Positions 3,752 to 26,551 of a stretch of 32,732 bases of DNA are shown here, in pieces. Below the pieces are notes generated by a model. The model saw only the letters and a program-made list of their open reading frames with translations, was not told the DNA's origin and did no database searches. The translations under genes and the position numbers were made by a program. Position 1 is the first letter of the stretch, and the number at the start of each line of letters is the position of its first letter. The stretch is from a virus, in the IMG/VR virus record IMGVR_UViG_3300028188_000013, positions 1 through 32,732 of that record; one strand, 5' to 3'.

Positions 3752-3978
3752 ATCTAAATATATCTACTGTTGCTAATGGTGTGAAGATTACTATTGAGGA
3801 TGAGGAATACGTCATACAAGAGATAGAAGATAATGAGATAGAGGCATGGCGATCTGCCCTTGCTGCCATCTACGAACAATTCGGCCCTCCTCAGAGTAGG
3901 CATGATAAAAAGAGGCTATATTTTACTATAGCCCCCGGTGATAAGAATGATGACTTTGTAGATACTATTTATCAGTGA
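3748..3978 (+). CDS. Hypothetical protein, 76 aa
   Basis: Not recognised. It starts in an ATGA overlap with the previous gene. It is very acidic in the middle (EDEEYVIQEIEDNEIEAW) and has no motif. It is the last gene of the 1901-3978 operon and overlaps by 14 bases the tail end of the convergent 769-aa gene, so there is no room for a terminator between the two converging operons. Confidence 0.7.
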   Translation: MNLNISTVANGVKITIEDEEYVIQEIEDNEIEAWRSALAAIYEQFGPPQSRHDKKRLYFTIAPGDKNDDFVDTIYQ

Positions 3979-6274
3979 TATCCAATAATCCCCGCGCAAT
4001 GGCGACACATCCACGCCATTGCCGGGCGCATATCTCAGAATCATCTTGCCAATCTTGATTCCACTGAGCTATCTCTTTCAGTCCTTCGCGCAGCCGCTCG
4101 TTCTCCGCTTCCAGCTCCATGCGCTTCACTTCTGAGTCGACCAGGTCTTGGCCGACCGACTCCCAGAGAGATTGGTATTTCGCTACCTCGCGCTCCAGGG
4201 CGATGATGCACTTCTTGCTCGTCTCCGCCAGTCCTACCCGTTCATCACACGATTCATCCAGAGCGGTCCGATGATTGTCTAACCGCTGCTGGTATGTCTC
4301 GATAGTAATCTGTTGATTGGCAGCCTGATTGCTGAGAGATTGGATCTGCTCCTGGATCTGCTTATAGTCCGACTCCATCTCCGGGTCCAGATCGTCAAGC
4401 TGACGCTGCATATCGGGATGAGCTATGGATGAGTTAGCGTGGTGTTTCATTCTTGCGTCCGCTTCCTCTTTTCTTTCGTTGAGCAGGTCGATCTGGGTCT
4501 GGAGTCGTTCCTCCATCTCGCATGGACGCCCCGTTTCTGGATCAATCTGTAGTTGCTTGATCTGCTGCTGGAGTTGCGTCACCTTACTATCATACGCCAT
4601 CTGATCGCGGATGAAGCGGATGTCGCCGTCGAGTCGCTGGATGTGGTCAGCGTGATCGTTGACAACACCATCCCTAATACCATCGCCTTTGATAAGTAAA
4701 AACGGTATTCGCATCGGCGCATCGTGGGTGAGCGTATAGTCATGCGCTTCGTGATCCAGTATCGGCGCATCCTCTGGTGAAAGCATACCATCCTTATACA
4801 TCTGTGCCATCTCCTTGACGGAATCTTCCTCTGCAATGTCGAGTAGTTCATCGGTCAACTCATCAAGTTTCCGCTGCTCACACTCATCGCTATACAGACC
4901 GTTCGTGCCGCTGCATGTAGGGCAGACGATAGGCGCAAGAATGAAATCAGGGCAGTCGGTCAAGCTACTTCCATTCTCATCTTCACCAGAGCAGTTGCTC
5001 TCTTCGTCCGTGTCGTAGCATTGACATTCAGTATTTACGCAGGGCGCAGTGGGGGCATCCTCCTCAAAATCGCCATCCTCATTAAAGCAAATAGCCTCGC
5101 TTTTATCCATATCAACCATACGCTTCTCGCAAGTCTCACACTGCCACATCTGCGTGGTATTATTGTAGATCAGAGTATGGGGCGCATCGCTGGATTCGGG
5201 CGCATCCTGGGTCTGCTCAAAATAGTCTGGATCAGGCTGCGGCACATCGGTGGGCGCATCCTCGCTGGTAATCGTAAACGGTTCTTCCATCTGCATCGCG
5301 GCGATACGTCTTAATTCTGTCTTTACTGCTGTGTCATCATACGCCATCAGTGCTACTCTGTAGATCGCCTTACGCATCTTCGCAATCAGATCATCGCGCT
5401 GCGTACACTCAGGGCATTCTACGTGGACATAGGCTACTGACTCAGGCGCATCCGTAGCGTCCTCGCCTTCGTATTCTATCGCCTGTTGCACTGCCAGATC
5501 GGAAGCAATGTCACACGCTTCGCAATCATCCCAATAAACATAGAATAACTCTCCATTGTTGCTTTCTACTCTGGCGTTGTGGAAGAATAACCAGTCCAAT
5601 CTCTCCCGTAATTCAATTTCTGTAGATTCCATTTCAGTCCAAAACTTACCAACGATGGCAAGTCGTTTTTTGATGGAATCTACCGTGGTGAGCGTTTCTG
5701 TCCGATAGTCAGCACGTTGGATAAATCCCCGATCATCAATCCATTCATTGATTGTATTGTAGAGCAGGAACAGTTCATGTTCAGCGGTTCCTTTTTCAAG
5801 CGCGTCCTCCTCCTCCGCTAGGCACACCGGACACACCGGCACCAACGGCGTGTTGCAGAGGAGACAGCGCGGTTCCTCATCGGGCGTCTCATCAGGCGGT
5901 GCAGCAACCGCACCGAACTGATACGCATTGACGGCGGCGACGATTAGTTGGGCATCTGCGTGTTTCATTGCGTGTATCAGCACAAAACCGTTGGCAGCAA
6001 TCACAGTAGAATAATCGCCACCGACAGCACGTCGTGTCCACGGCAAGGCGGTTACTTCAGTAGCAGATATATCAACACCACTATATTCAGCATCTTCCGA
6101 TTGTTTGCCCATCGGCGCGTTCATCCATTCGGCGTCCTCCTCAGTTACTTCAGCATTTACCAATCTATCCTCAACGACATCAGCCGACTTAAGAGCCTCT
6201 TCAATCTCTATTCTAAATTCTTTATCACAAAGACTCTCAGCTATATTATATAACCGGCGCAGCAAGTTCTTCAT
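3965..6274 (-). CDS. Large acidic multi-CxxC and coiled-coil protein, 769 aa
   Basis: Not recognised. The N-terminal ~420 residues are acidic and hold many Cys pairs suited to zinc: CLLCNTPLVPVCPVC, CEAC, CPEC, CETC, a CVNTECQC cluster, and CPTC plus a later Cys. Between them the tripeptide DAP recurs at module boundaries. It is encoded repeatedly by the same 8-mer, GGCGCATC on the plus strand, at 4716, 4764, 5180, 5198, 5253 and 5445. The C-terminal third (~residues 520-745) is long coiled coil rich in Q/E/R, ending in WNQDWQDDSEICARQWRGC. The start has AGGAG 6 bases upstream and lies inside the end of the sigma gene. It could be a scaffold or RNA polymerase/nucleic-acid binding protein; this is inference only. 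Confidence 0.8.
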   Translation of the reverse strand: MKNLLRRLYNIAESLCDKEFRIEIEEALKSADVVEDRLVNAEVTEEDAEWMNAPMGKQSEDAEYSGVDISATEVTALPWTRRAVGGDYSTVIAANGFVLIHAMKHADAQLIVAAVNAYQFGAVAAPPDETPDEEPRCLLCNTPLVPVCPVCLAEEEDALEKGTAEHELFLLYNTINEWIDDRGFIQRADYRTETLTTVDSIKKRLAIVGKFWTEMESTEIELRERLDWLFFHNARVESNNGELFYVYWDDCEACDIASDLAVQQAIEYEGEDATDAPESVAYVHVECPECTQRDDLIAKMRKAIYRVALMAYDDTAVKTELRRIAAMQMEEPFTITSEDAPTDVPQPDPDYFEQTQDAPESSDAPHTLIYNNTTQMWQCETCEKRMVDMDKSEAICFNEDGDFEEDAPTAPCVNTECQCYDTDEESNCSGEDENGSSLTDCPDFILAPIVCPTCSGTNGLYSDECEQRKLDELTDELLDIAEEDSVKEMAQMYKDGMLSPEDAPILDHEAHDYTLTHDAPMRIPFLLIKGDGIRDGVVNDHADHIQRLDGDIRFIRDQMAYDSKVTQLQQQIKQLQIDPETGRPCEMEERLQTQIDLLNERKEEADARMKHHANSSIAHPDMQRQLDDLDPEMESDYKQIQEQIQSLSNQAANQQITIETYQQRLDNHRTALDESCDERVGLAETSKKCIIALEREVAKYQSLWESVGQDLVDSEVKRMELEAENERLREGLKEIAQWNQDWQDDSEICARQWRGCVAIARGLLDITDK

Positions 6275-7019
6275 AATTGATCTCCTGTTTTAAATCATCC
6301 ATTGCCATCTCTTTTAACTGCCTGACACGCTCCCTTGTTACTCCTATAATATCACCAATAGCCTGTAGCGTCTTAGGCTCCTCTCCATCAAGACCAAAAT
6401 ACATCGTAAGGATTTGTTTTCTCCTACCATTTAGAGAATCAACACCTGTTTGGATGGTAGTATTAATAGTATTCTCAATAAGCATGACCTCAGCAGAGGG
6501 TTGGTGGTCTTTGTATTGAATAGGCTTATCATACTTAGAGGGTGCATCCATCGATAGATCACCTCTCAACTGTCCTGCTAAATCAATGCGTATCTGTTCT
6601 GATAGATCCATCTCATCGCATATCTCATCAAACGTAGAGTTCTCCATCTTCTTCTGCATCTTTATGTATTTTTGTATGTGTGTTATAAGTCCACCGGGAC
6701 GCCTGACTATATCATCTCCCGTAAGTGCCATGCGTATTCTTTGGCGTATCCAATGGACTGCATATGATATGAGTTTATTATTACTGTTCATATCATACCG
6801 CTCAATGGCTTCTATCAGCCCATCAATACCCTCTGAGACAAGATCATCTTGCTCAATACCTCGCCTGAACTGATCGTAGTAAGAGGCTATATCAACAACA
6901 AAGCGGATATTGGCTTGGATAAGTTCATCCCTTGCCTCCAGGTCGCCTTTTTTAGCACGACGTAAAAGCATCCGCTCGCGCTTTCTTGTCAGAGGTGCTA
7001 TGGTGCCAGTATATAACAT
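6246..7019 (-). CDS. Sigma-70 family RNA polymerase sigma factor
   Basis: 257 aa. Region 2 is clear at residues ~25-100 (ELIQANIRFVVDIASYY, QDDLVSEGIDGLIEAIERYD, SYAVHWIRQRI), covering core binding and -10 recognition. A short region 3 follows. Region 4 is at ~195-243 (LNGRRKQILTMYFGLDGEE, TLQAIGDIIGVTRERVRQLK), a helix-turn-helix for the -35 element. It lacks region 1.1, as expected for a small group-3-like or phage factor. It probably redirects host RNA polymerase to a phage gene class, perhaps late genes. The palindrome at 7031 lies between the upstream gam stop and this gene's AGGAG site, which suggests its synthesis is controlled separately within the operon. Confidence 0.93.
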   Translation of the reverse strand: MLYTGTIAPLTRKRERMLLRRAKKGDLEARDELIQANIRFVVDIASYYDQFRRGIEQDDLVSEGIDGLIEAIERYDMNSNNKLISYAVHWIRQRIRMALTGDDIVRRPGGLITHIQKYIKMQKKMENSTFDEICDEMDLSEQIRIDLAGQLRGDLSMDAPSKYDKPIQYKDHQPSAEVMLIENTINTTIQTGVDSLNGRRKQILTMYFGLDGEEPKTLQAIGDIIGVTRERVRQLKEMAMDDLKQEINYEELAAPVI

Positions 7020-7030
7020 AGGTATCTCCT

Positions 7031-7044
7031 GTTATACGTATAAC
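7031..7044. promoter_or_regulatory. 14-bp palindromic site, copy 2 (perfect)
   Basis: GTTATACGTATAAC sits one base after the stop codon of the Gam-like gene and 11 bases before the sigma start, with AGGAG filling the gap. It lies inside an operon between two cistrons, so it may act on mRNA (5-bp hairpin next to the ribosome-binding site), as an elongation block, or as an operator. Confidence 0.8.
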
Positions 7045-7589: not shown

Positions 7590-8958
7590 GGTCTTTTTCG
7601 TAATAGTTTTCAGGTATCTCTTGAGTAGAGTCGTAAGGTGCGCGTTCAGCAAAGCAAGCCGACTCAGGTATCCACACCAGTGGCACCTGTCCCGTGGGTC
7701 CATTTCGTTGTTTCTCTATTAATAATGCAGCATCATTGCCGATCTCTTTACCATCAACTCTTTCTTGTAATTCTTCGTAATACCCAGGACGATAAAGCAT
7801 TAATACTATATCGGCATCTTGTTCGATACCGCCGCTGCCACGTAGATCGCTCAACTGAGGTCGTTTATCAGGCCTGCTCTCACATGATCTATTCAACTGC
7901 GATAAGGCCAAAACAGGTGTATCAGTATCTTTGGCTATATTCTTTAATCCAGTACTGATCATATTGAGGCGTTCATTCTCACTATTACCTTGACCTGTCA
8001 TAAGCTGTAAGTAATCCACCACCCATAATCCGATGTCATATCTCTGTTTTAATCGCCTACATTTGGATCGCATCTCCACTATTGATAGTCCTGCTGTATC
8101 ATCAACGTAAATAGGTAGTTGAGCAAATCGTGACATAGCCATTGCCATCTTATCTACGCCTTCTAAATTTAATCGTCCTTGTCGTAGTTCTTGTAACGAT
8201 AGCATGGCTTCAGTGCTTAGAATTCTTTGGCCCACCTGTTGCTTGCTCATCTCACAACTGAATATACCCACGCCCTTCTTCTCTATCTTGGCTACGTTCA
8301 AAGCAAAAGAGAAGGCCAGGCTTGATTTGCCGATACTCGGACGCGCAGCCAAGATGATAAGATCGGGTGCCATGAATCCACCCATGCGATAATTAACAGC
8401 CGAGAAGCCTGTATCGAGTCCAATAAAAGGACGTTTTGAGGCAGAGGCCTTATCATATGTTGAACTGACGTCGCTGAATATATCGCTTAGTGTCGAAGGC
8501 TCTTTGCGATCTGTTGTCCTACTGAGGTTCATCAGCTTATTACTGAACTTCTCTATAGTTTCACCCGCTCCCACGCCATCGTAAATAGCACTCTCGGCTT
8601 CTCTGCCTGTTATGATTATCTCTCTCTCTATTGCTCTGTCTAATACGATCTGGATGTGATTCTTGATATTGGCAGCACTGGCTACCTCAGAGGCCAGCTT
8701 GGATATATAAACGACACCGCCAACCTCTTCATACTTGGATCGCTTTTTAAGCTCATCAGTGAGCGTTAAGGTATCCACCTCAATGCCATTTTGAAACAGT
8801 TTGATAATAGCATCAAAGATAATACCATGATGAGAATTATAGAAGAATGAGTTTTCTAAAGTCTCTGAGGCTAACCCAATAGCATCAGAGGTGATCATCA
8901 TGGCGCTGAGGACGGCTTGCTCTACTTGGACGTCTTGTGGTGGCATACGATCCATCAT
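7582..8958 (-). CDS. dnaB: Replicative DNA helicase, DnaB family
   Basis: 458 aa, normal family length. The N-terminal DnaB domain (~5-105: PQDVQVEQAVLSAMM, FFYNSHHGIIFDAI) is joined by a linker to the RecA-like motor. Walker A is ARPSIGKSS (205-213), Walker B is LWVVDYLQLM (311-320), followed by LSQLNRSCESR and SDLRGSGGIEQDADIVLML. It is a hexameric 5'-3' helicase that unwinds the fork. The start overlaps the stop of the upstream winged-helix replication protein (ATGA), the usual initiator/loader-then-helicase pairing. Confidence 0.96.
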   Translation of the reverse strand: MMDRMPPQDVQVEQAVLSAMMITSDAIGLASETLENSFFYNSHHGIIFDAIIKLFQNGIEVDTLTLTDELKKRSKYEEVGGVVYISKLASEVASAANIKNHIQIVLDRAIEREIIITGREAESAIYDGVGAGETIEKFSNKLMNLSRTTDRKEPSTLSDIFSDVSSTYDKASASKRPFIGLDTGFSAVNYRMGGFMAPDLIILAARPSIGKSSLAFSFALNVAKIEKKGVGIFSCEMSKQQVGQRILSTEAMLSLQELRQGRLNLEGVDKMAMAMSRFAQLPIYVDDTAGLSIVEMRSKCRRLKQRYDIGLWVVDYLQLMTGQGNSENERLNMISTGLKNIAKDTDTPVLALSQLNRSCESRPDKRPQLSDLRGSGGIEQDADIVLMLYRPGYYEELQERVDGKEIGNDAALLIEKQRNGPTGQVPLVWIPESACFAERAPYDSTQEIPENYYEKDLD

Positions 8959-9782
8959 GGCATCTCTACTCCTTTGAATTCTCTCTTTTTAGCTTCGCCT
9001 ATCTCTTCTTGTGTGCCTCTCATCTGATTTCTGATCACCTCCCAGGTCTTGAGTTCAGGATAAGATCTATTCTTAGAGCGTAGTTTAGATGGTGCTTGGA
9101 TGTGTTGGCTTGTCCATGTAGTCAAGGCGTATTTAACTATCTCGCCTATCTCGCGCCAAGATAACTTATCAATTCTCTCCATATCGTCAAATGTTTTGCC
9201 ATAGACAGCAATAGTATCATCAGTCATTTTGATAGGACGCTTGGAGTGCCATTCGTTGATACAGCGCATGGCGTTTTCTGATGGAGTGTAAACTTCTTTT
9301 TTCGATTCTGTTTCCGATTCCGAAGGAATATCTTTTTTATTTAATTTATTAGATTTATTATTATATATGTGGGTTTCTGTTTCCTGTTCGTTTATTGTTT
9401 GTTTATCCTCTGTTTCTTCTTTGTTACTATTGATCTGATGTGGGTCTTGAAAACTCTCCCAATTTATTACAGTTATGACAGAATATCTTGCGTTCCCACT
9501 TCCAGCCTTCTCCCAGATGATCATTTTCTTGCTTTCGAGCCACTCCAATACATCAGATACCTGCTTGGGCTTTATGGTTCGTGGGCATCCTCCCTGGACT
9601 CTATAGGCACATTCTTGGCCGATGTTATTCATTGAGCGATCAATGCGGCCTGTTTCATAGTTAACGCGCAATAATATCCATAGCCATACTCTCAGATAGT
9701 GGTTCGGCATCTCCCATATCTCAGAATTTAATAGCTTACGCCATAGATATATATAGGTTTCATCTGATTGCTGGAGTATCAT
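8955..9782 (-). CDS. Winged-helix phage replication protein (initiator/helicase-loader type)
   Basis: 275 aa. The N-terminal ~115 residues are a winged-helix domain (YLWRKLLNSEIWEMPNHYL, IGQECAYRV, ISDVLEWL-like helix, SVITVINWESFQ). A polar N/K/E/T linker (~118-165) follows. The C-terminal segment resembles the tail of DnaD/phage-O-type proteins (TFDDMERIDKLSWREIGEIVKYA ... LKTWEVIRNQM). This layout directly upstream of a DnaB helicase indicates origin binding or helicase loading. The ribosome-binding site before the ATG is weak. The structured RNA at 9822-9942 ends just upstream, so the RNA may lie in this gene's leader. Confidence 0.78.
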   Translation of the reverse strand: MILQQSDETYIYLWRKLLNSEIWEMPNHYLRVWLWILLRVNYETGRIDRSMNNIGQECAYRVQGGCPRTIKPKQVSDVLEWLESKKMIIWEKAGSGNARYSVITVINWESFQDPHQINSNKEETEDKQTINEQETETHIYNNKSNKLNKKDIPSESETESKKEVYTPSENAMRCINEWHSKRPIKMTDDTIAVYGKTFDDMERIDKLSWREIGEIVKYALTTWTSQHIQAPSKLRSKNRSYPELKTWEVIRNQMRGTQEEIGEAKKREFKGVEMP

Positions 9783-9821
9783 ATTTTTATGTCCATTCGA
9801 GATAATTATTTACATGCTAAT

Positions 9822-9942
9822 ACAGAAAGCACCCGAGATAGTAGATAGAGGCCGCCAAGCCCTATCCTGTCCCTCGCGGGATCAGGTATCTCGGGTGCTT
9901 CAAAAGTTTTAAGTAGTAAATCATTGGCGGCTACTTTCTACA
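9822..9942 (-). ncRNA. Structured small RNA A: three-way junction with pseudoknot
   Basis: Transcribed leftward from the promoter at 9949-9976. P1 is a perfect 14-bp stem pairing 9887-9900 with 9827-9840. P2 (9866-9886) stacks directly on P1: CCUG-A-UCCC, GNRA tetraloop GCGA, then GGGA-CAGG. P3 (9845-9865) is 21 nt and contains GCUU..CGG. The 8 bases GCCGCCAA near the RNA 5' end (9931-9924) are exactly complementary to UUGGCGGC in P3 (9858-9851), a likely pseudoknot. RNA B at 11859 has the same plan with different bases in the same pairing. The function is unknown. It may be a free small RNA or the leader of the 8955 gene. The 3' end is uncertain because the U-run is weak. Confidence 0.75.
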
Positions 9943-9948
9943 ATTACT

Positions 9949-9976
9949 AATATAAGCGGTGATTCAGAAAAGTCAA
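9949..9976 (-). promoter_or_regulatory. Promoter of RNA A
   Basis: -35 TTGACT (9971-9976), 16-base spacer, -10 TATATT (9949-9954) on the minus strand. The predicted start near 9942 places the pseudoknot strand about 11 nt from the RNA 5' end. Confidence 0.78.
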
Positions 9977-9979
9977 CGG

Positions 9980-10174
9980 TCAATCAGAATAATCTCGTAT
10001 CATTTTATTCATATCGACAATAAAATCCTTGACTGATTCTCTCAAGTCTCCTGTTTCTCTGCCCAGGTTATTTTTCTTCACTTGCTCGTCATATATCTTA
10101 TTAACTAACATGCCGAAGTCTCTAATACGCTCCAATATCGGCACAAGATCAGATTCTTTCAACGATTGACTCAT
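9980..10174 (-). CDS. Hypothetical helical protein, 64 aa
   Basis: Not recognised. It is small and predicted all-helical (SLKESDLVPILERIRDFGMLV, ESVKDFIVDMNKMIRDYSD). The start is fixed by AGGAGG 5 bases upstream. The palindrome copy at 10186 directly precedes that site. Its stop is 4 bases from the -35 box of RNA A. Confidence 0.65.
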   Translation of the reverse strand: MSQSLKESDLVPILERIRDFGMLVNKIYDEQVKKNNLGRETGDLRESVKDFIVDMNKMIRDYSD

Positions 10175-10185
10175 TCTATCCTCCT

Positions 10186-10199
10186 GTTATGCGTATAAC
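10186..10199. promoter_or_regulatory. 14-bp palindromic site, copy 3 (one-base variant)
   Basis: Reads GTTATGCGTATAAC on the plus strand. It sits 8 bases after the stop of the 10208 gene and 11 bases before the 64-aa gene start, with AGGAGG immediately following it in the sense direction. The geometry is the same as at 7031. Confidence 0.78.
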
Positions 10200-10207
10200 G
10201 GTGGGTG

Positions 10208-10618
10208 TCAATTCCCTTTTGAGAGTAAGAATCTTTTACGTAACCCATATAAAAATTCAACATACTCACCTTCTGTGTATTGAATTCTCTCTGGACATAA
10301 ATCAATTGCTATTTTATTCAATGGTATAACTTTCCACCACGAGAAGTCATCAGCATAACGAACAGCAAAAAAAGAACGCCCAGCATCAGTAGCCAATGTG
10401 CTTAGTGCTTTATATGATGCGTGTGTCGGATATTGCAGTGGCGCATTTTCGTGTTTATATTCAATGATAGCCACAGGACATGCTTTATCATATTCGACTA
10501 ATAAAAAATCAATGTCTACCGCCGGACAATCCCATCCCCATTCTCTGTGTTTTTGACTGATAGACTCATCACGCCAGCCAGATCGCTCCTTTCTCACTTC
10601 AGGTTTATTCTCTTCCAT
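10208..10618 (-). CDS. PD-(D/E)XK-like conserved phage protein, 136 aa
   Basis: Carries a nuclease-like core: VDIDFLLVEYD followed by PVAIIEYKHE, i.e. Asp35/Asp37, Glu53 and Lys55, spaced as in PD-(D/E)XK enzymes. The RDESISQKHREWGWDCPAVDIDF segment resembles a conserved hypothetical family in phages whose activity is not known to me. Start: AGGAG 6 bases upstream of ATG. It overlaps the upstream ParB-methyltransferase gene by 14 bases. The pairing with a methyltransferase could suggest restriction-like or DNA-processing use, but this is inference. Confidence 0.7.
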   Translation of the reverse strand: MEENKPEVRKERSGWRDESISQKHREWGWDCPAVDIDFLLVEYDKACPVAIIEYKHENAPLQYPTHASYKALSTLATDAGRSFFAVRYADDFSWWKVIPLNKIAIDLCPERIQYTEGEYVEFLYGLRKRFLLSKGN

Positions 10619-11831
10619 CCTCTTCTCCTAATCTACTGGCGCTGATCTTTATCTGATCTTTATCATTATCGACACCTATAAAATTGCACCCTGACTTTAT
10701 GGTTGCTATACCAGTTGTTCCAGCACCACAAAAAGGATCTAATATAATTTGTCCTGGCTCAACAAACCGATTCACTATATCAACCATACCACTCACCGAC
10801 TGCCCCCAATGGTGCCAATCTTTATCGTTATCATTGACTGTATCTTTTGCTACATCTCCAATCCATTTCCCTTTATAATCTCCTTTGGTGAACCAGAGGA
10901 GCGGTTTCCAAAACGTATTCACCTTACGTTGCCAGAGTTGAACCGACTGGCCGCCTGGTGTGAGATAGGACAAAATCCACTGAAAGGTTAGATGTTCTGA
11001 GAGTGCTGTTATTATGGTCGGTAAGTATGATTGGCCTATCATCACAATAAGTGATCCGCCCTCGGGTAATAATTCAAATGCCTTACGGCCCAATATGGGA
11101 TAGAGATAAAGATAATCTTCTGGATAAGGTGGATCAGTAATGATCATGTCTATGTGGCCGATCTCATCGGATGTAATATCCTGTATATCTTTACATATAA
11201 GATTAAATTTGTTTGTTTTAGCCGTTGCATTTTGTTCTATTCGCTGCTCTCTTTTCTGCTCTTGTGTTTTTTCCTTCTCCTTTCTCTTAATCTCCTTGTG
11301 CGCCTTATTGATTGACATATCAGAGGCACCTGTTCGTAGCTTTTGCTTTGTTTCTTCATCAGCCTGTTCAATAATAATCTTAGTCTTGTGAATCGTATCA
11401 TGGGATATACCGGCTTTGGTGGCAAGCTCGGCGCGGGTATCTACTGGCGTCAGACTTTTTGCAGAATTCTGCGGAATGTCGGTTCGCATTCCCTGATTCT
11501 CTTTTGCTCTTGCTGCTATAATGGGTTCATATTTTAGAGCCAACTCAGCCTTTTGAAAGGTAGTTAAGTTTCTTCGGCCAAACTGATTATTTATAACCCA
11601 CTCCAAAACATCCCACCTATTTTCAAACTCCTTACTTATTGTTCTTACTTCTATTCCAAGTTCATCACATATCTTTTTCCTATGATGTCCATCTATAACA
11701 ATGCCGTTCCATAAAATTATAGCTTCGCGCAATCCATCGGCTTCTATATTATCTTTCAGTTGATAATATTCTTCATTCGACAATGGTGGTATAAGTGCTT
11801 GTATTTCTGGATCTATGCGAATCTCACTCAT
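10605..11831 (-). CDS. ParB-like domain fused to DNA methyltransferase (beta-class order)
   Basis: 408 aa. The N-terminal ParB/sulfiredoxin-like domain (~1-100) has IVIDGHHRKKICDELGI. A helical, HTH-like middle (~95-205: AELATKAGISHDTIHKTK, then a highly charged K/E/Q linker) follows. The C-terminal methyltransferase has catalytic motif IV DPPY (233-236) before the AdoMet-binding motif DPFCGAGTTGIA (365-376). This order is typical of beta-class N6-adenine or N4-cytosine enzymes; DPPY is most often N6-adenine. The target site is unknown. The palindrome at 11845 and AGGAGG precede the start, and RNA B lies immediately upstream. Confidence 0.92.
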   Translation of the reverse strand: MSEIRIDPEIQALIPPLSNEEYYQLKDNIEADGLREAIILWNGIVIDGHHRKKICDELGIEVRTISKEFENRWDVLEWVINNQFGRRNLTTFQKAELALKYEPIIAARAKENQGMRTDIPQNSAKSLTPVDTRAELATKAGISHDTIHKTKIIIEQADEETKQKLRTGASDMSINKAHKEIKRKEKEKTQEQKREQRIEQNATAKTNKFNLICKDIQDITSDEIGHIDMIITDPPYPEDYLYLYPILGRKAFELLPEGGSLIVMIGQSYLPTIITALSEHLTFQWILSYLTPGGQSVQLWQRKVNTFWKPLLWFTKGDYKGKWIGDVAKDTVNDNDKDWHHWGQSVSGMVDIVNRFVEPGQIILDPFCGAGTTGIATIKSGCNFIGVDNDKDQIKISASRLGEEDGRE

Positions 11832-11844
11832 TACTACCTCCTAA

Positions 11845-11858
11845 GTTATACGTATAAC
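11845..11858. promoter_or_regulatory. 14-bp palindromic site, copy 4 (perfect)
   Basis: GTTATACGTATAAC lies between the U-run ending RNA B and the AGGAGG of the ParB-methyltransferase gene, 13 bases before its ATG. Confidence 0.8.
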
Positions 11859-11966
11859 AAAAAAGCCTTGGGTATGACTACGGATCTCCGTTGAAGCTCC
11901 GCTCCTGGCATTGCTGCTCAGGATACCCAAGGCTTAATTTCTGTTTGGCAACGGAGTCTTTAGTCA
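11859..11966 (-). ncRNA. Structured small RNA B: same fold as RNA A, with terminator-like end
   Basis: Transcribed leftward from the promoter at 11973-12000. P1 is a perfect 13-bp stem (11923-11935 with 11863-11875) followed by a run of six U, so it can terminate transcription. P2 (11904-11922) is CCUG-A-GCA, GNRA loop GCAA, UGC-CAGG. P3 (11881-11901) is 21 nt with the CGGA/UCCG stem and GCUUCAACGG. CUCCGUUG near the 5' end (11956-11949) is exactly complementary to CAACGGAG in P3 (11893-11886). The P2 lead CCUGA, the GNRA loop, P3 length, GCUU..CGG and pseudoknot placement all match RNA A, while the pseudoknot bases differ. This is compensatory change. The function is unknown. Confidence 0.8.
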
Positions 11967-11972
11967 ATATTA

Positions 11973-12000
11973 AATATAAGCCTAATCAAGAATAAGTCAA
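11973..12000 (-). promoter_or_regulatory. Promoter of RNA B
   Basis: -35 TTGACT (11995-12000), 16-base spacer, -10 TATATT (11973-11978) on the minus strand. The predicted start near 11966 puts the pseudoknot strand about 10 nt from the RNA 5' end, as in RNA A. It sits just past the ssb stop. Confidence 0.78.
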
Positions 12001-12003
12001 GGG

Positions 12004-12432
12004 TCAAAATGGGAGGTCGGTGTCACCGCTCTCAGGATACCCTTGATCGCTTTGCTGCTCCTGTTGCGCTGGCTGGCTCTGCTGCTGTCCCTGATTCTCT
12101 CCCTTACTATCCAGCATCAGCATCTCATTGGCAACGATCTCTGTGGTATACTTCTTCTGACCATCCTTGTCCTCCCAGGAGCGCGTCTGAAGCTTGCCTT
12201 CGATATAGAGCTTAGATCCTTTCTTGACATAAGTGCCGATGATCTCAGCTAACTTCCTGAAGGCCACAAGTCTGTGCCACTCTGTCTTCTCTTGCTTCTG
12301 TCCATCCTTCGTCCATGACTCCGTTGTGGCTATAGAAAAGTTAGCCACCTGATCGCCATTGGGAGTAAAGCGCACCTCTGGATCTTGTCCTACATTACCG
12401 ATCAGCGTTACCTTGTTCAATCCTCTTGCCAT
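12004..12432 (-). CDS. ssb: Single-stranded DNA-binding protein
   Basis: 142 aa. OB-fold of bacterial type: [66 protein letters not shown]. It is followed by a Q/S/P-rich flexible tail and the acidic tip DTDLPF, which in this family recruits partner proteins. I chose the second of two adjacent ATGs (12432) because AGGAGG lies 5 bases before it and only 2 before the first. SSB coats the strands made by the helicase and serves ERF recombination. Confidence 0.95.
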
Positions 12433-12599: not shown

Positions 12600-12613
12600 G
12601 TTATACGTATAAC
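12600..12613. promoter_or_regulatory. 14-bp palindromic site, copy 5 (perfect)
   Basis: GTTATACGTATAAC lies 13 bases before the 46-aa gene's ATG and 6 bases past a 13-bp hairpin (12620-12651). Hairpin, palindrome and ribosome-binding site follow one another in the sense direction. Confidence 0.8.
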
Positions 12614-12619
12614 GGATAT

Positions 12620-12651
12620 GAGTGGCCTCAGTCTCCCCACTGAGGCCACTC
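12620..12651 (-). terminator. 13-bp perfect hairpin without U-run
   Basis: GAGTGGCCTCAGT pairs with ACTGAGGCCACTC around a 6-base loop. It lies between the 99-aa gene and the 46-aa gene. No T-run follows on either strand, so it may be an mRNA processing or stability element rather than an intrinsic terminator. Confidence 0.55.
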
Positions 12652-12663
12652 CCGGCATGGCTC

Positions 12664-17321: not shown

Positions 17322-19049
17322 TTACAGTTCAATCTTCTTCAATCCTCTACCTTTAACAGGCTCGCCCACCTTATCCTCAACTGTCTTTGGTACGAATCGC
17401 CTGTTTGAGCAATACTCCAACGCCTCATCCGTCATCTCTTGGGTGCTTTTAGCCGTAGGAACAACATATTCCAAGGCCTTGCTCAGATCTGTTATACGTA
17501 TAACAGATCGCCCATCTTCAGTTGCTTCTCTATCTGCCTCAATGCACAGTTGCTCTACATCAGCTCCGGTGAAATCGGTTGCCTGTTCGCCCAATTCAAC
17601 TAACTCATCCTCTGTGACATCCATCTCAATACCCATCTTATCAGCAATGACCTTGATAAGCTCATGCCTCACGCCATCGAAGTGCTGCGGCAGTAAGGGG
17701 ATTACTTGCTCAAAACGCCCCGGCCTCAATAGCTCTCTGGGGATTCTTGATGGGTAATTGGTAGTGCCGATAAAGAATGCAACACCTCTGGGGAAGGCTG
17801 CGAGAAAGGTTTGTAGCTGGCCCTGTATCTCCTGAGACACGCCTGAGCTATCGCCACTATTGAACATGGTGTGTAACTCATCAAAAAGGACGATAGAGGG
17901 TGCAAGGGCTTTGATGCCTTCAAATAATTTGGACATATTCTTATTACTCTCGCCCACAAATTTATTCTTGATCATATCCATACGGATCATTACAAGGGGG
18001 AGATTCAAAGCACATGCCAGAGCCTTAGATAGTTCGGTTTTTCCACACCCTGGATTTCCTGAAAAAACCAGACCTTTCGGGCATCGACCATCGCCAGCCA
18101 TCATCTTAGGATATACATATTTTTTAAAGTAATCTTTGAGCTGATCCAGACCCACAATAGAATCAAAGCCTTTTTCTGGATAGGAAATATCAATCACTCC
18201 ACCATAGGTTTGTCTGACTAAAACATCTTTTCTTGCCTGAACGATCTTACGGGAAACTATCCCACCCTCTAACTCGGCTTGATACAGGCAATCTTCTAAC
18301 TGCAAGAGGTTCAACGCTCCCGTTATCCTTGCCAACTCCTCCTCTGTCAATCCCTCTTCTAAAGTGAGATTGGGGTTGGCATCCATCACTCTGCTAACGA
18401 AGTCTCTGCGCGTATCTACTTCAGGTAAGGGGATATTGATGGGGGCTATGCGTCCTTGCACCAAGGCACCTCTCAGGTCGCTATGGGCAATTAAGAAGAT
18501 TCTATGAGGGCTACCATTACCACTTAATAGGGGCATGGCAGACCACTGGCGCAGATAAGCCAATAAAGTTCGCTCAGGCTCCACCAAGGCACCTTCAGCA
18601 TCAAAGATGAGATCGGCATCATGTATAATGAGAGCGAGAGGAGGTGCAGCGGGATCGTTGAAATACTGCGCCAAGCGTCCAAAGTCAGCTTCTAATCCAC
18701 CACCCTGAGCAAAAGGATTACTGTCCGGTGGTGGTGAATAGCGGCCAAAAACCTCTTCGTGTTCGGGTAGCATCTTGAGGCCGGTAGTTTGATACAACTC
18801 AGCAAAAACATGCGCTTGTGCTACTTCTTCTTCTGAGTTATTCTTCTTGCGGATCGCACCTAACGTCATGCGCTCCAAAAAGCTGGCGCGTCCTACTTGG
18901 CTCGTTCCAAGCGTCTCACCGGGGTAAACAGGATAGCCACCTACGTCACCCATGAGGGCGAATATCTCGCTCTGCTGCGTCTGTAGGTTATTGTGGATCT
19001 GCCTATACCACTGAGGGATCGTGCCGTTGGTTTTGCCTACTGCCTTCAT
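17322..19049 (-). CDS. AAA+ ATPase with two-domain, Ycf46-like layout
   Basis: 575 aa from the ATG (MKAVGKTNG) preceded by AAAGGAG; a longer frame exists but overlaps an upstream small gene. The N-terminal region (~125-285) looks like a degenerate AAA domain (LALIIHDADLIFD, IFLIAHSDLR, LPEVDTRRDFVSRVM, GALNLLQLEDCLYQAE). The active module follows: GFDSIVGLDQLKDYF, Walker A GNPGCGKT (331-338), Walker B IVLFDE (386-391), sensor GTTN (428-431), arginine-finger region RPGRFEQ (442-448), and a C-terminal helical lid with DFTGADVEQLC. This order matches Ycf46/FtsH-like ATPases but there is no protease or membrane segment. It is a remodelling or unfolding motor of unknown substrate. The fifth codon group near the end (VIRIT, 516-520) is encoded by the palindrome at 17491. 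Confidence 0.88.
   Translation of the reverse strand: MKAVGKTNGTIPQWYRQIHNNLQTQQSEIFALMGDVGGYPVYPGETLGTSQVGRASFLERMTLGAIRKKNNSEEEVAQAHVFAELYQTTGLKMLPEHEEVFGRYSPPPDSNPFAQGGGLEADFGRLAQYFNDPAAPPLALIIHDADLIFDAEGALVEPERTLLAYLRQWSAMPLLSGNGSPHRIFLIAHSDLRGALVQGRIAPINIPLPEVDTRRDFVSRVMDANPNLTLEEGLTEEELARITGALNLLQLEDCLYQAELEGGIVSRKIVQARKDVLVRQTYGGVIDISYPEKGFDSIVGLDQLKDYFKKYVYPKMMAGDGRCPKGLVFSGNPGCGKTELSKALACALNLPLVMIRMDMIKNKFVGESNKNMSKLFEGIKALAPSIVLFDELHTMFNSGDSSGVSQEIQGQLQTFLAAFPRGVAFFIGTTNYPSRIPRELLRPGRFEQVIPLLPQHFDGVRHELIKVIADKMGIEMDVTEDELVELGEQATDFTGADVEQLCIEADREATEDGRSVIRITDLSKALEYVVPTAKSTQEMTDEALEYCSNRRFVPKTVEDKVGEPVKGRGLKKIEL
17486..17509. promoter_or_regulatory. Intragenic 24-bp perfect palindrome (14-bp site, copy 6)
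   Basis: GTTATACGTATAAC at 17491-17504 is flanked by GATCT and AGATC, giving 24 bp of perfect two-fold symmetry inside the AAA+ coding region. It is the longest symmetrical version in the window and the only copy far from a start codon. Confidence 0.8.
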
Positions 19050-19050
19050 C

Positions 19051-19227
19051 TTAGTATTCTCCTTTGAGTGCAGCTGCTTTGGCCTTGGCATCATAACGAT
19101 TACCAGCCTTCTGCCGCTTGGTGATTCTCCGCGCCTTGACATCGGCCAAGATCTGAGCGGAGAGGATCTTTCTGGCGGTGCGTTCGTCTACTTTGTGCGT
19201 CTGCATGATGGCGATTAGGTTATTCAT
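19051..19227 (-). CDS. Small basic protein, 58 aa, before the AAA+ gene
   Basis: Encodes MNNLIAIMQTHKVDERTARK followed by a Lys/Arg/Ala-rich helical tail (ADVKARRITKRQKAGN, KAKAAALKGEY). ATG overlaps the upstream stop (TAATG). Its own last codons contain the AAAGGAG used by the AAA+ gene, and its TAA lies 1 base before that ATG, so the three genes are translationally coupled. Basic, helical: possible nucleic-acid binder. Confidence 0.72.
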   Translation of the reverse strand: MNNLIAIMQTHKVDERTARKILSAQILADVKARRITKRQKAGNRYDAKAKAAALKGEY

Positions 19228-22267: not shown

Positions 22268-22341
22268 CGCGAGACAGGCAGTATGGGTGCTGCGTCAGGT
22301 TCATATCCTGAAGTGTGAAGGTTCGACTCCTTCTCTCGCCT
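22268..22341 (+). tRNA. tRNA with CAU anticodon (Met/fMet-like)
   Basis: Cloverleaf read by eye: acceptor CGCGAGA (22268-22274) with TCTCGCC (22334-22340), the first pair being a C-C mismatch. D stem GCAG/CTGC. Anticodon stem TCAGG/CCTGA with loop TTCATAT (CAT at 22302-22304). T arm GAAGG/CCTTC with consensus loop TTCGACT. No CCA is encoded. The CGCG start and unpaired position 1-72 resemble bacterial initiator tRNA, but the anticodon stem has only two of the three G-C pairs. There is one extra base between acceptor and D stem. A lysidine-modified Ile tRNA cannot be excluded. Confidence 0.82.
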
Positions 22342-22541: not shown

Positions 22542-22555
22542 GTTATACGTATAAC
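22542..22555. promoter_or_regulatory. 14-bp palindromic site, copy 7 (perfect)
   Basis: GTTATACGTATAAC ends 9 bases before the GTG start of the 100-aa gene, with AGAGAGGGG in the gap. No good promoter box is visible just upstream. Confidence 0.78.
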
Positions 22556-22867: not shown

Positions 22868-23454
22868 CTGAACTGGCAACAGTAAACACTGAGATAGTAT
22901 CGTATGACGATTGGGCTGAACGAGGGATAGGACTGCGTTCCGAACTGCGCCAGATAGAGGGCGAGGCATCGCGCCTATATTGGGATATAGGTCATTGGCT
23001 GGTCTATGGCGAGAATGCTTTTCCAGATCAATGGTCACAGATGGCTGATGACTTTGGATTCTCTCGCGAGACGGTTCGTAATATGATGTGGGTGGCAAGC
23101 AAGATACCACCCGAGGAGGTCAAGCCTGAACTAAGCTGGTGGCATCATCAGGCCGTCGCTGCGCTACCACAAGGCGATAGGGCGGCTGTGTTAGAGACAG
23201 CTATTGATGATGCTCTGAGCGTCAAGGATACGCGCCTCATCGCCAAGTCAGCCAAGCATGAGCATGACGAAGAGGTCTATGCCGACATCATTCAATCACC
23301 TGGGCAAGAATTAAAAGAAGCACCTCCGGTTGACAATCCTTCTGAGAATACTATATTGACTACGATAGTCCAATGGTCAGAGAGTCAGATAGGCCAAGAA
23401 TGGACACAAGAGTCACATAATAAACTAATTAATTGGCTGGCTGGAGGTGGGTAG
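22864..23454 (+). CDS. Putative HTH/ParB-like regulatory protein, 196 aa
   Basis: Contains LYWDIGHWLVYGENAF, then QMADDFGFSRETVRNMMWVA (helix-turn-helix shape) and LSWWHHQAVAALPQGDRAAV followed by ALSVKDTRLIAKSAK. This sequence of elements recurs in uncharacterised phage and plasmid DNA-binding proteins resembling the HTH part of ParB/KorB. The C-terminus is acidic and Gln/Ser-rich. An internal promoter at 23330 lies within its 3' end. Confidence 0.7.
   Translation: MTELATVNTEIVSYDDWAERGIGLRSELRQIEGEASRLYWDIGHWLVYGENAFPDQWSQMADDFGFSRETVRNMMWVASKIPPEEVKPELSWWHHQAVAALPQGDRAAVLETAIDDALSVKDTRLIAKSAKHEHDEEVYADIIQSPGQELKEAPPVDNPSENTILTTIVQWSESQIGQEWTQESHNKLINWLAGGG
23330..23357 (+). promoter_or_regulatory. 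Intragenic promoter for the RNA leader and sigma-like gene
   Basis: Exact match to the window consensus: -35 TTGACA (23330-23335), 16-base spacer, -10 TATATT (23352-23357), inside the end of the 196-aa gene. The predicted start near 23364 would give a leader of about 310 bases before the 35-codon ORF. Confidence 0.72.
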
Positions 23455-23675
23455 CGAAACGCTGATGCGAAAGCGCAGCACCTCTAACGAGGGTGGTTGA
23501 CCAGAGGAATGCATGAATCTCTTAAATAGGATTAATAATTCTATTTCATGCCACCTTACAACGGACAAGGCTTAGGCCTCATTCGGCCAAATAATTTGGG
23601 TATCCTGTCACATAAACGGTGAGCCACTATCCCCCTAGCAGTTTACCGGGATACCCTTCTATCGGGAGGGTTGCC
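23455..23675 (+). ncRNA. Hairpin-rich untranslated leader
   Basis: No ORF. It contains a TGCG-AAAG-CGCA hairpin near 23466, CCTCT/AGAGG around GGTTGACC, a GCATGAA/TTCATGC stem (23511-23551), GGCC-TCATTC-GGCC, and an 8-bp stem GGGTATCC/GGATACCC (23598-23605 with 23649-23656). The density of stems indicates a structured leader RNA. The last stem begins like P1/P2 of RNA B but lacks the GNRA P2, so it is not counted as that family. Confidence 0.55.
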
Positions 23676-26537: not shown

Positions 26538-26551
26538 GTTATGCGTATAAC
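26538..26551. promoter_or_regulatory. 14-bp palindromic site, copy 8, covering the dnaN start codon
   Basis: GTTATGCGTATAAC; its ATG at 26541-26543 is the start codon of dnaN. The ribosome-binding site AAAGGGGG is 8 bases upstream. Protein bound here, or the RNA hairpin, would hide the start codon. Confidence 0.78.

Follow-up and report, generated by a model that had tools for sequence, protein, structure and literature searches.

Two intergenic gaps in the replication region of an uncultured virus record (32,732 bases, analysed over its whole length and herein called the window) each hold, on the minus strand, a predicted small RNA with a pseudoknot; by their shared fold and by compensatory changes, these two, RNA A and RNA B, are members of one RNA family. 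Each carries computed promoter and terminator signals, and we propose that they are paralogous small noncoding RNA genes, each of which would be read from its own sigma-70-type promoter and would end at a helix (P1) followed by a U tract, giving transcripts of ~110-125 nt.

The gap that contains RNA A is flanked by a 64-aa open reading frame (ORF) and the gene for a DnaD-like helicase loader, and the gap that contains RNA B by ssb and a ParB-methyltransferase gene. The original prediction placed a TTGACT-N16-TATATT promoter before each RNA; both are present, with identical spacing, and are the two top-scoring promoter-like sites in 9700-12100 (10/12 each). Both loci have in common a 14-nt block, TTGACCSTTGACTT, that includes the stop codon of the upstream gene together with the -35. 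The predicted 5' G lies 8 nt beyond the -10 in both RNAs and is also the first paired base. Behind the other promoter-like sites of the window no comparable RNA was found. The promoters and the downstream genes are as follows:

9949-9976, minus strand: promoter of RNA A, TTGACT-N16-TATATT, from sequence; its -35 begins 4 nt past the end of the 64-aa ORF
11973-12000, minus strand: promoter of RNA B, TTGACT-N16-TATATT, from sequence; its -35 begins 4 nt past the end of ssb
8955-9782, minus strand: DnaD-like helicase loader gene, located downstream of RNA A (PHROG 2514, E 2e-18)
10605-11831, minus strand: ParB-like and DNA methyltransferase gene, located downstream of RNA B (profile matches)

The phage also encodes a sigma-70-family factor with regions 2 and 4 (6246-7019, minus strand), which may read the TTGAC-TATATT promoters at 1846, 13931, 26475, 31411, 9976 and 12000.

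From 5' to 3', both RNAs have the same order of elements: a (4 nt), AAAG(U)A, b (8 nt), a linker (24 nt in RNA A, 14 nt in RNA B), P1, P2, the P3 5' strand, b', the P3 3' strand, a' (4 nt), P1' and the U tract. RNA A comprises:

9819-9942, minus strand: predicted transcript of RNA A, from the start site to the end of the U-rich tail, both ends predicted from sequence
9938-9941, minus strand: helix a, 5' strand GUAG, then AAAG (sequence and fold)
9924-9931, minus strand: helix b, 5' strand GCCGCCAA (sequence and fold)
9887-9900, minus strand: P1, 5' strand (fold and covariance model)
9866-9886, minus strand: P2 hairpin CCUG-A-UCCC-GCGA-GGGA-CAGG (fold and motif)
9845-9865, minus strand: P3 hairpin, the loop of which carries b' UUGGCGGC at 9858-9851 (fold)
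9841-9844, minus strand: helix a, 3' strand CUAC, in the interval between P3 and P1' (sequence and fold)
9827-9840, minus strand: P1, 3' strand, then a weak U-rich tail to 9819 (sequence and fold)

The corresponding elements of RNA B are:

11858-11966, minus strand: predicted transcript of RNA B, both ends predicted from sequence
11962-11965, minus strand: helix a, 5' strand GACU, then AAAG (sequence and fold)
11949-11956, minus strand: helix b, 5' strand CUCCGUUG (sequence and fold)
11923-11935, minus strand: P1, 5' strand (fold and covariance model)
11904-11922, minus strand: P2 hairpin CCUG-A-GCA-GCAA-UGC-CAGG (fold and motif)
11880-11902, minus strand: P3 hairpin, the loop of which carries b' CAACGGAG at 11893-11886 (fold)
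11876-11879, minus strand: helix a, 3' strand AGUC, in the interval between P3 and P1' (sequence and fold)
11858-11875, minus strand: P1, 3' strand, and U6 tract (terminator; sequence and fold)

P1, P2 and P3 are all present in the MFE structures of RNA A and RNA B (z-scores of -4.7 and -4.0, respectively). The layout of the original prediction therefore stands in outline, with two adjustments to lengths: P1 is of 13-15 rather than 13-14 bp, and the 21 nt given for P3 apply to RNA A, that of RNA B being 23 nt. P2 has the predicted CCUGA start (its A is bulged), GNRA loop and CAGG close, and the 8-nt pairing proposed between the leader and P3 is exact over 8 bp in each RNA (GCCGCCAA:UUGGCGGC in RNA A, CUCCGUUG:CAACGGAG in RNA B). 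Three features were absent from that earlier description. The first four bases of the predicted transcript pair with four bases between P3 and P1' to form an extra helix, a:a' (GUAG:CUAC in RNA A, GACU:AGUC in RNA B); AAAG directly follows the 5' strand of this helix in both RNAs; and the stretch from a to b forms, with that from b' to a', one imperfect complement of 17-18 nt (-22.7 kcal/mol in RNA A, -18.7 kcal/mol in RNA B).

Closed on itself via GCUU, the P3 hairpin reaches -9.7 kcal/mol in RNA A and -8.0 kcal/mol in RNA B, weaker than the a-b complement that would partly displace it; the shared GCUU lies partly within the pairing stretch in RNA A and can alternatively pair with b' in the closed hairpin. 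Adding the leader pairing takes the summed energy from -47.7 to -58.2 kcal/mol (RNA A) and from -41.5 to -52.4 kcal/mol (RNA B), such that the pseudoknot is favoured over the closed state by 10.5-10.9 kcal/mol in summed energies before any pseudoknot penalty. Within each RNA the leader pairs best with its own partner, and cross-pairing between RNA A and RNA B reaches only -5.3 and -11.6 kcal/mol. As modeled, the closed-P3 state and the pseudoknotted state may both be available, the pseudoknot being one of two states. For P3, the two sequences would fit either geometry, loop pairing with its outer stem kept or full strand exchange.

Pairing of this extent is rare in shuffled sequence. Helices of 8 or more bp arose in shuffled leaders with a frequency of 2e-4 for RNA A and 5e-4 for RNA B, in agreement with the earlier statement that an 8-nt match in both RNAs at the same position was very unlikely by chance. 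Over the longer stretch that includes a:a', the leader pairing reaches -23.2 and -19.1 kcal/mol (shuffle means of -7.9 and -5.8 for RNA A and RNA B, respectively), and leader-to-P3-side pairing as strong as this was found in none of 10,000 shuffles of either leader. A descriptor that covers the whole layout, taken at the score of RNA B, finds on average 0.003 matches in a dinucleotide-shuffled window, and two matches together in 0 of 300 shuffles; in real sequence, comparable single matches occur a few times per several megabases. Because single matches do occur by chance, either RNA alone is not compelling; a pair that agrees in promoter, P2 and helix order is.

These figures bear directly on the reading that the two are ordinary long terminators with coincidental extra pairings. 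A GC-rich hairpin followed by a U tract, as in an intrinsic terminator, is found in RNA B as P1 with U6 (CUUUUUUG, a strong tract) and in weaker form in RNA A, where the tract is UUUCUGUAUU and would make a poor terminator; both P1 helices escape a simple terminator scanner, whose loop limit is 8 nt. P1 with its U tract is thus terminator-like, and single descriptor matches arise by chance in megabases of sequence. However, the leader shuffles of each RNA and the window shuffles with two matches all stand at zero, and the promoter, its spacing, P2 and helix a are alike in both RNAs, which makes coincidence a highly improbable account.

Since MAFFT misaligns RNA A and RNA B, the covariance model was built from RNA A alone, and base pairs were counted by a script on a hand alignment of the two. 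Twenty base pairs are changed on both sides, 1 is changed on one side and 0 are broken; the two-sided changes fall in helix a (3 of 4 pairs), b (7 of 8), P1 (6 of 13), P2 (2 of 7) and P3 (2 of 4). A covariance model of the nested part of RNA A finds RNA B as its best independent match (25.4 bits, E 1.5e-4). The leader shuffles, the pair counts and this match together sustain the central claim of the original prediction, namely that these are two homologous small RNAs with a covarying pseudoknot, in which the sequences differ and the pairings are kept.

The same model also strongly matches the plus strand of RNA A; its source is the palindromic P1 and not a second element. This match, together with repeats that are nearly perfect and symmetric on both strands and a location among replication genes, would suit DNA elements, in which the interleaved inverted repeats would serve as an origin, as a nicking site or as a binding site for protein, with the RNA fold a by-product. 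The structure alone is indeed symmetric (P1 and the interleaved repeats), and the minus strand was chosen on the position of the promoter, the start-site G and the U tract, which follows P1 on the minus strand only. That all three signals indicate one strand argues against a DNA element, as do the letters conserved in the P2 hairpin and the difference between RNA A and RNA B in most of the repeat sequence; we regard a role of this kind as quite improbable.

The letters that RNA A and RNA B conserve concentrate in P2 (CCUG, the bulged A, GNRA and CAGG), a conservation that rests on two sequences, both from one phage; within the window, the P2 motif is found only at these two places. The small ORFs inside the two RNAs are unrelated to each other, with no credible ribosome site and no plausible shared peptide. 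The letters of P2 are retained and those of the other helices vary freely, as in a scaffold that presents one recognition hairpin; we therefore favour, though tentatively and at somewhat less than even odds, a reading in which RNA A and RNA B would be transcribed independently, end at a terminator, be unusually stable and offer P2 to a protein. The 5' leader would fold back into the P3 half through helices a and b, and P1 would close the 3' end, so that a pseudoknotted core would lock in both ends; such a core would probably serve to make the RNA long-lived and resistant to decay at both its ends. P2 would be presented to a putative RNA-binding protein of phage or host, which might be sequestered or guided, with a possible effect on host or phage. 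Weighing against RNA genes of this kind are the lack, in the scans, of a homologue outside this phage, the closed state that P3 may also adopt, the weak tail of RNA A and the leader-like position of both RNAs before a same-strand gene.

The main rival builds on the last two points: the RNAs may be 5' leaders, as attenuators or stability elements, RNA A for the DnaD-like loader and DnaB helicase and RNA B for the ParB-methyltransferase, with termination at P1 set by the fold of the leader or by a bound protein or factor. Each RNA ends ~27-37 nt ahead of the same-strand start codon, the weak U tract of RNA A would permit read-through, and there is no obvious Shine-Dalgarno sequence before the DnaD-like gene; the AbiF RNA of C. 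difficile is, moreover, a discrete phage RNA and a terminated leader at once (PMC12373285). On the other hand, no strand is shared among a, b, P1 and P2, which can coexist, unlike the exclusive alternatives of a classic attenuator, and the downstream genes are functionally unrelated, yet one fold is common to both RNAs. In addition, the U tract of RNA B is strong, and the gene behind it retains a strong Shine-Dalgarno sequence and a separate palindrome. We consider leaders a possible but rather unlikely explanation. A riboswitch reading was rejected because of the layout and because conserved letters are lacking.

Loop-to-linear complementarity is common in antisense RNAs, which counts for trans-acting base-pairing RNAs, with a b' loop or leader that would pair with target mRNAs and a self-pairing that would be the off state until a target is met. 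In RNA B, GACUCCGUUG matches a 10-nt stretch of the ssb mRNA (12326-12317) with full complementarity, but this match is at chance level (3 matches with at most one mismatch, a number reached in 17 of 100 shuffles), RNA A has no exact match elsewhere, and pairing with a target needs no covarying 8-bp self-pairing; a trans-acting role therefore appears improbable. The complementary stretch of the ssb mRNA (12317-12326) faces the b region of an RNA that itself lies just downstream of ssb.

Searches for relatives bear on the suggestion of a new phage RNA family. With Rfam 15 (4,227 models), the whole window gives only a tRNA (22269-22340) at the gathering threshold, and at relaxed E-values over RNA A and RNA B no model comes near threshold (best 20.2 bits against 45), in line with the earlier remark that no named family has this layout. 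A blastn search with RNA A and RNA B against the phage collection gave no match, nor did one with the window's first 25 kb. Of the neighbouring proteins searched in IMG/VR, the DnaD-like loader and the ParB-methyltransferase were found only in IMGVR_UViG_3300028173_000433, which is 100% identical to the window; SSB is found at 80 loci with almost no common neighbourhood, where the covariance model finds no such RNA. Pattern scans for the P2 motif, five of IMG/VR (two of these among the matches listed only) and one of GTDB contigs, gave no third member, the further places all being without a proper P1 or without the pseudoknot. Across ~1,570 bacterial genomes in four groups, the covariance model gave only two matches of at least 25.4 bits under stricter filters; both were rejected, one as a plain 34-nt hairpin and the other as a GC-rich site where P1 is broken and the pseudoknot absent. 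The model built from RNA A thus recovers RNA B and no third member, and the suggested family is new to Rfam and, in these scans, confined to this phage. As these collections contain no close relative of the phage, the failure to find homologues counts for little. A wider phage RNA family, judged from two paralogues of one phage and pattern-based scans, is unproven rather than refuted, and the word "family" in that sense should wait for a third member.

RNA A and RNA B share features with several known systems. Type III toxin-antitoxin RNAs (ToxI, CptI, TenpI) are small, pseudoknotted, protein-binding RNAs with their own promoter and terminator, and consist of short H-type pseudoknots repeated in tandem ahead of an endoribonuclease gene. 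RNA A and RNA B are likewise small and pseudoknotted with a predicted promoter and terminator of their own, but are single units of 110-125 nt in two dispersed copies, with no repeat array and with neighbours that match no toxin family; a type III antitoxin was therefore rejected. The pRNA of phi29 (~120 nt) has a three-way junction and, as one RNA per genome, pairs loop to loop between molecules; RNA A and RNA B have a similar length, a three-way junction and a loop that pairs outside its own hairpin, but with two copies, a self-specific leader-to-loop pairing and no Rfam match they were not taken for pRNAs. HDV-like ribozymes are double pseudoknots in which a 5' strand pairs into the interior, as it does here, in the order P1-P2-P3-P1'-P4-P2' and with a catalytic C in J4/2. 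This assignment too was rejected: in RNA A and RNA B the pairing strand is in the P3 loop, the helix order differs, no J4/2-type segment with a catalytic C is found and there is no Rfam match.

In flavivirus xrRNA, the 5' part is tied by pseudoknots into a three-way-junction core and a loop pairs downstream. The 5' part of RNA A and RNA B is also tied in, which by analogy would fit protection from a 5'-to-3' exonuclease; however, their loop pairs with the upstream leader and the a' strand with the very 5' end, the helix order differs and there is no sequence match. The AbiF-associated RNA (RF03085; RCd22 of C. difficile prophage phi027) is a discrete, terminator-ended phage RNA bound by protein (PMC12373285). 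RNA A and RNA B are likewise phage-borne, predicted to be terminator-ended and just upstream of a same-strand gene, but have another layout and no match to RF03085 (the abiF motif); no Abi_2/AbiF protein adjoins them, and PADLOC finds none among seven proteins tested. By analogy, RNA A and RNA B would be nearest in way of working to protein-binding phage RNAs such as the AbiF RNA and nearest in topology to viral xrRNAs, and on what was tested they are members of neither.

Several further features were observed in the window. The palindrome GTTATRCGTATAAC occurs at 8 places against 0.23 expected (1831-1844, 7031-7044, 10186-10199, 11845-11858, 12600-12613, 17491-17504, 22542-22555 and 26538-26551), mostly just before a Shine-Dalgarno sequence, in one case immediately behind RNA B and in another across the start codon of the sliding-clamp gene; from its sequence it may be either an operator or an mRNA hairpin, GUUAU-ACGU-AUAAC. 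A hairpin, GAGTGGCCTCAGT..ACTGAGGCCACTC, in a short intergenic stretch (12620-12652) is a probable two-way terminator. Several short GC-rich hairpins (CGAAACG..GCGAAAGCGC) in the intergenic stretch after a gene at 23454-23600 (plus strand) are possibly another structured RNA. Among the phage genes are an AAA ATPase (17322-19142, minus strand) similar to the defence protein IetA (PADLOC E 4.5e-21) and a 769-aa protein (3965-6274, minus strand) that matches nothing in Pfam or PHROG and LmuB only weakly (E 3e-5).

A recognised fold is available for few phage noncoding RNAs, and most of these owe their discovery to the existence of many homologues. Here, the fold is supported by compensatory changes between two paralogues in one phage and includes the predicted transcript's own 5' end. 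We raise, as a speculative and on present evidence unlikely extension, a new class of phage noncoding RNA in which the first bases of the transcript and an 8-nt strand would be threaded into a pseudoknotted three-way junction; such an RNA would be the bacterial-virus counterpart of an end-protected, exonuclease-resistant RNA and would display a protein-binding hairpin, present as two orthogonal copies in one phage. If confirmed, RNA A and RNA B would provide a test case for phage RNAs that resist decay from both ends and a lead to the RNA-binding partner of the conserved P2 hairpin.
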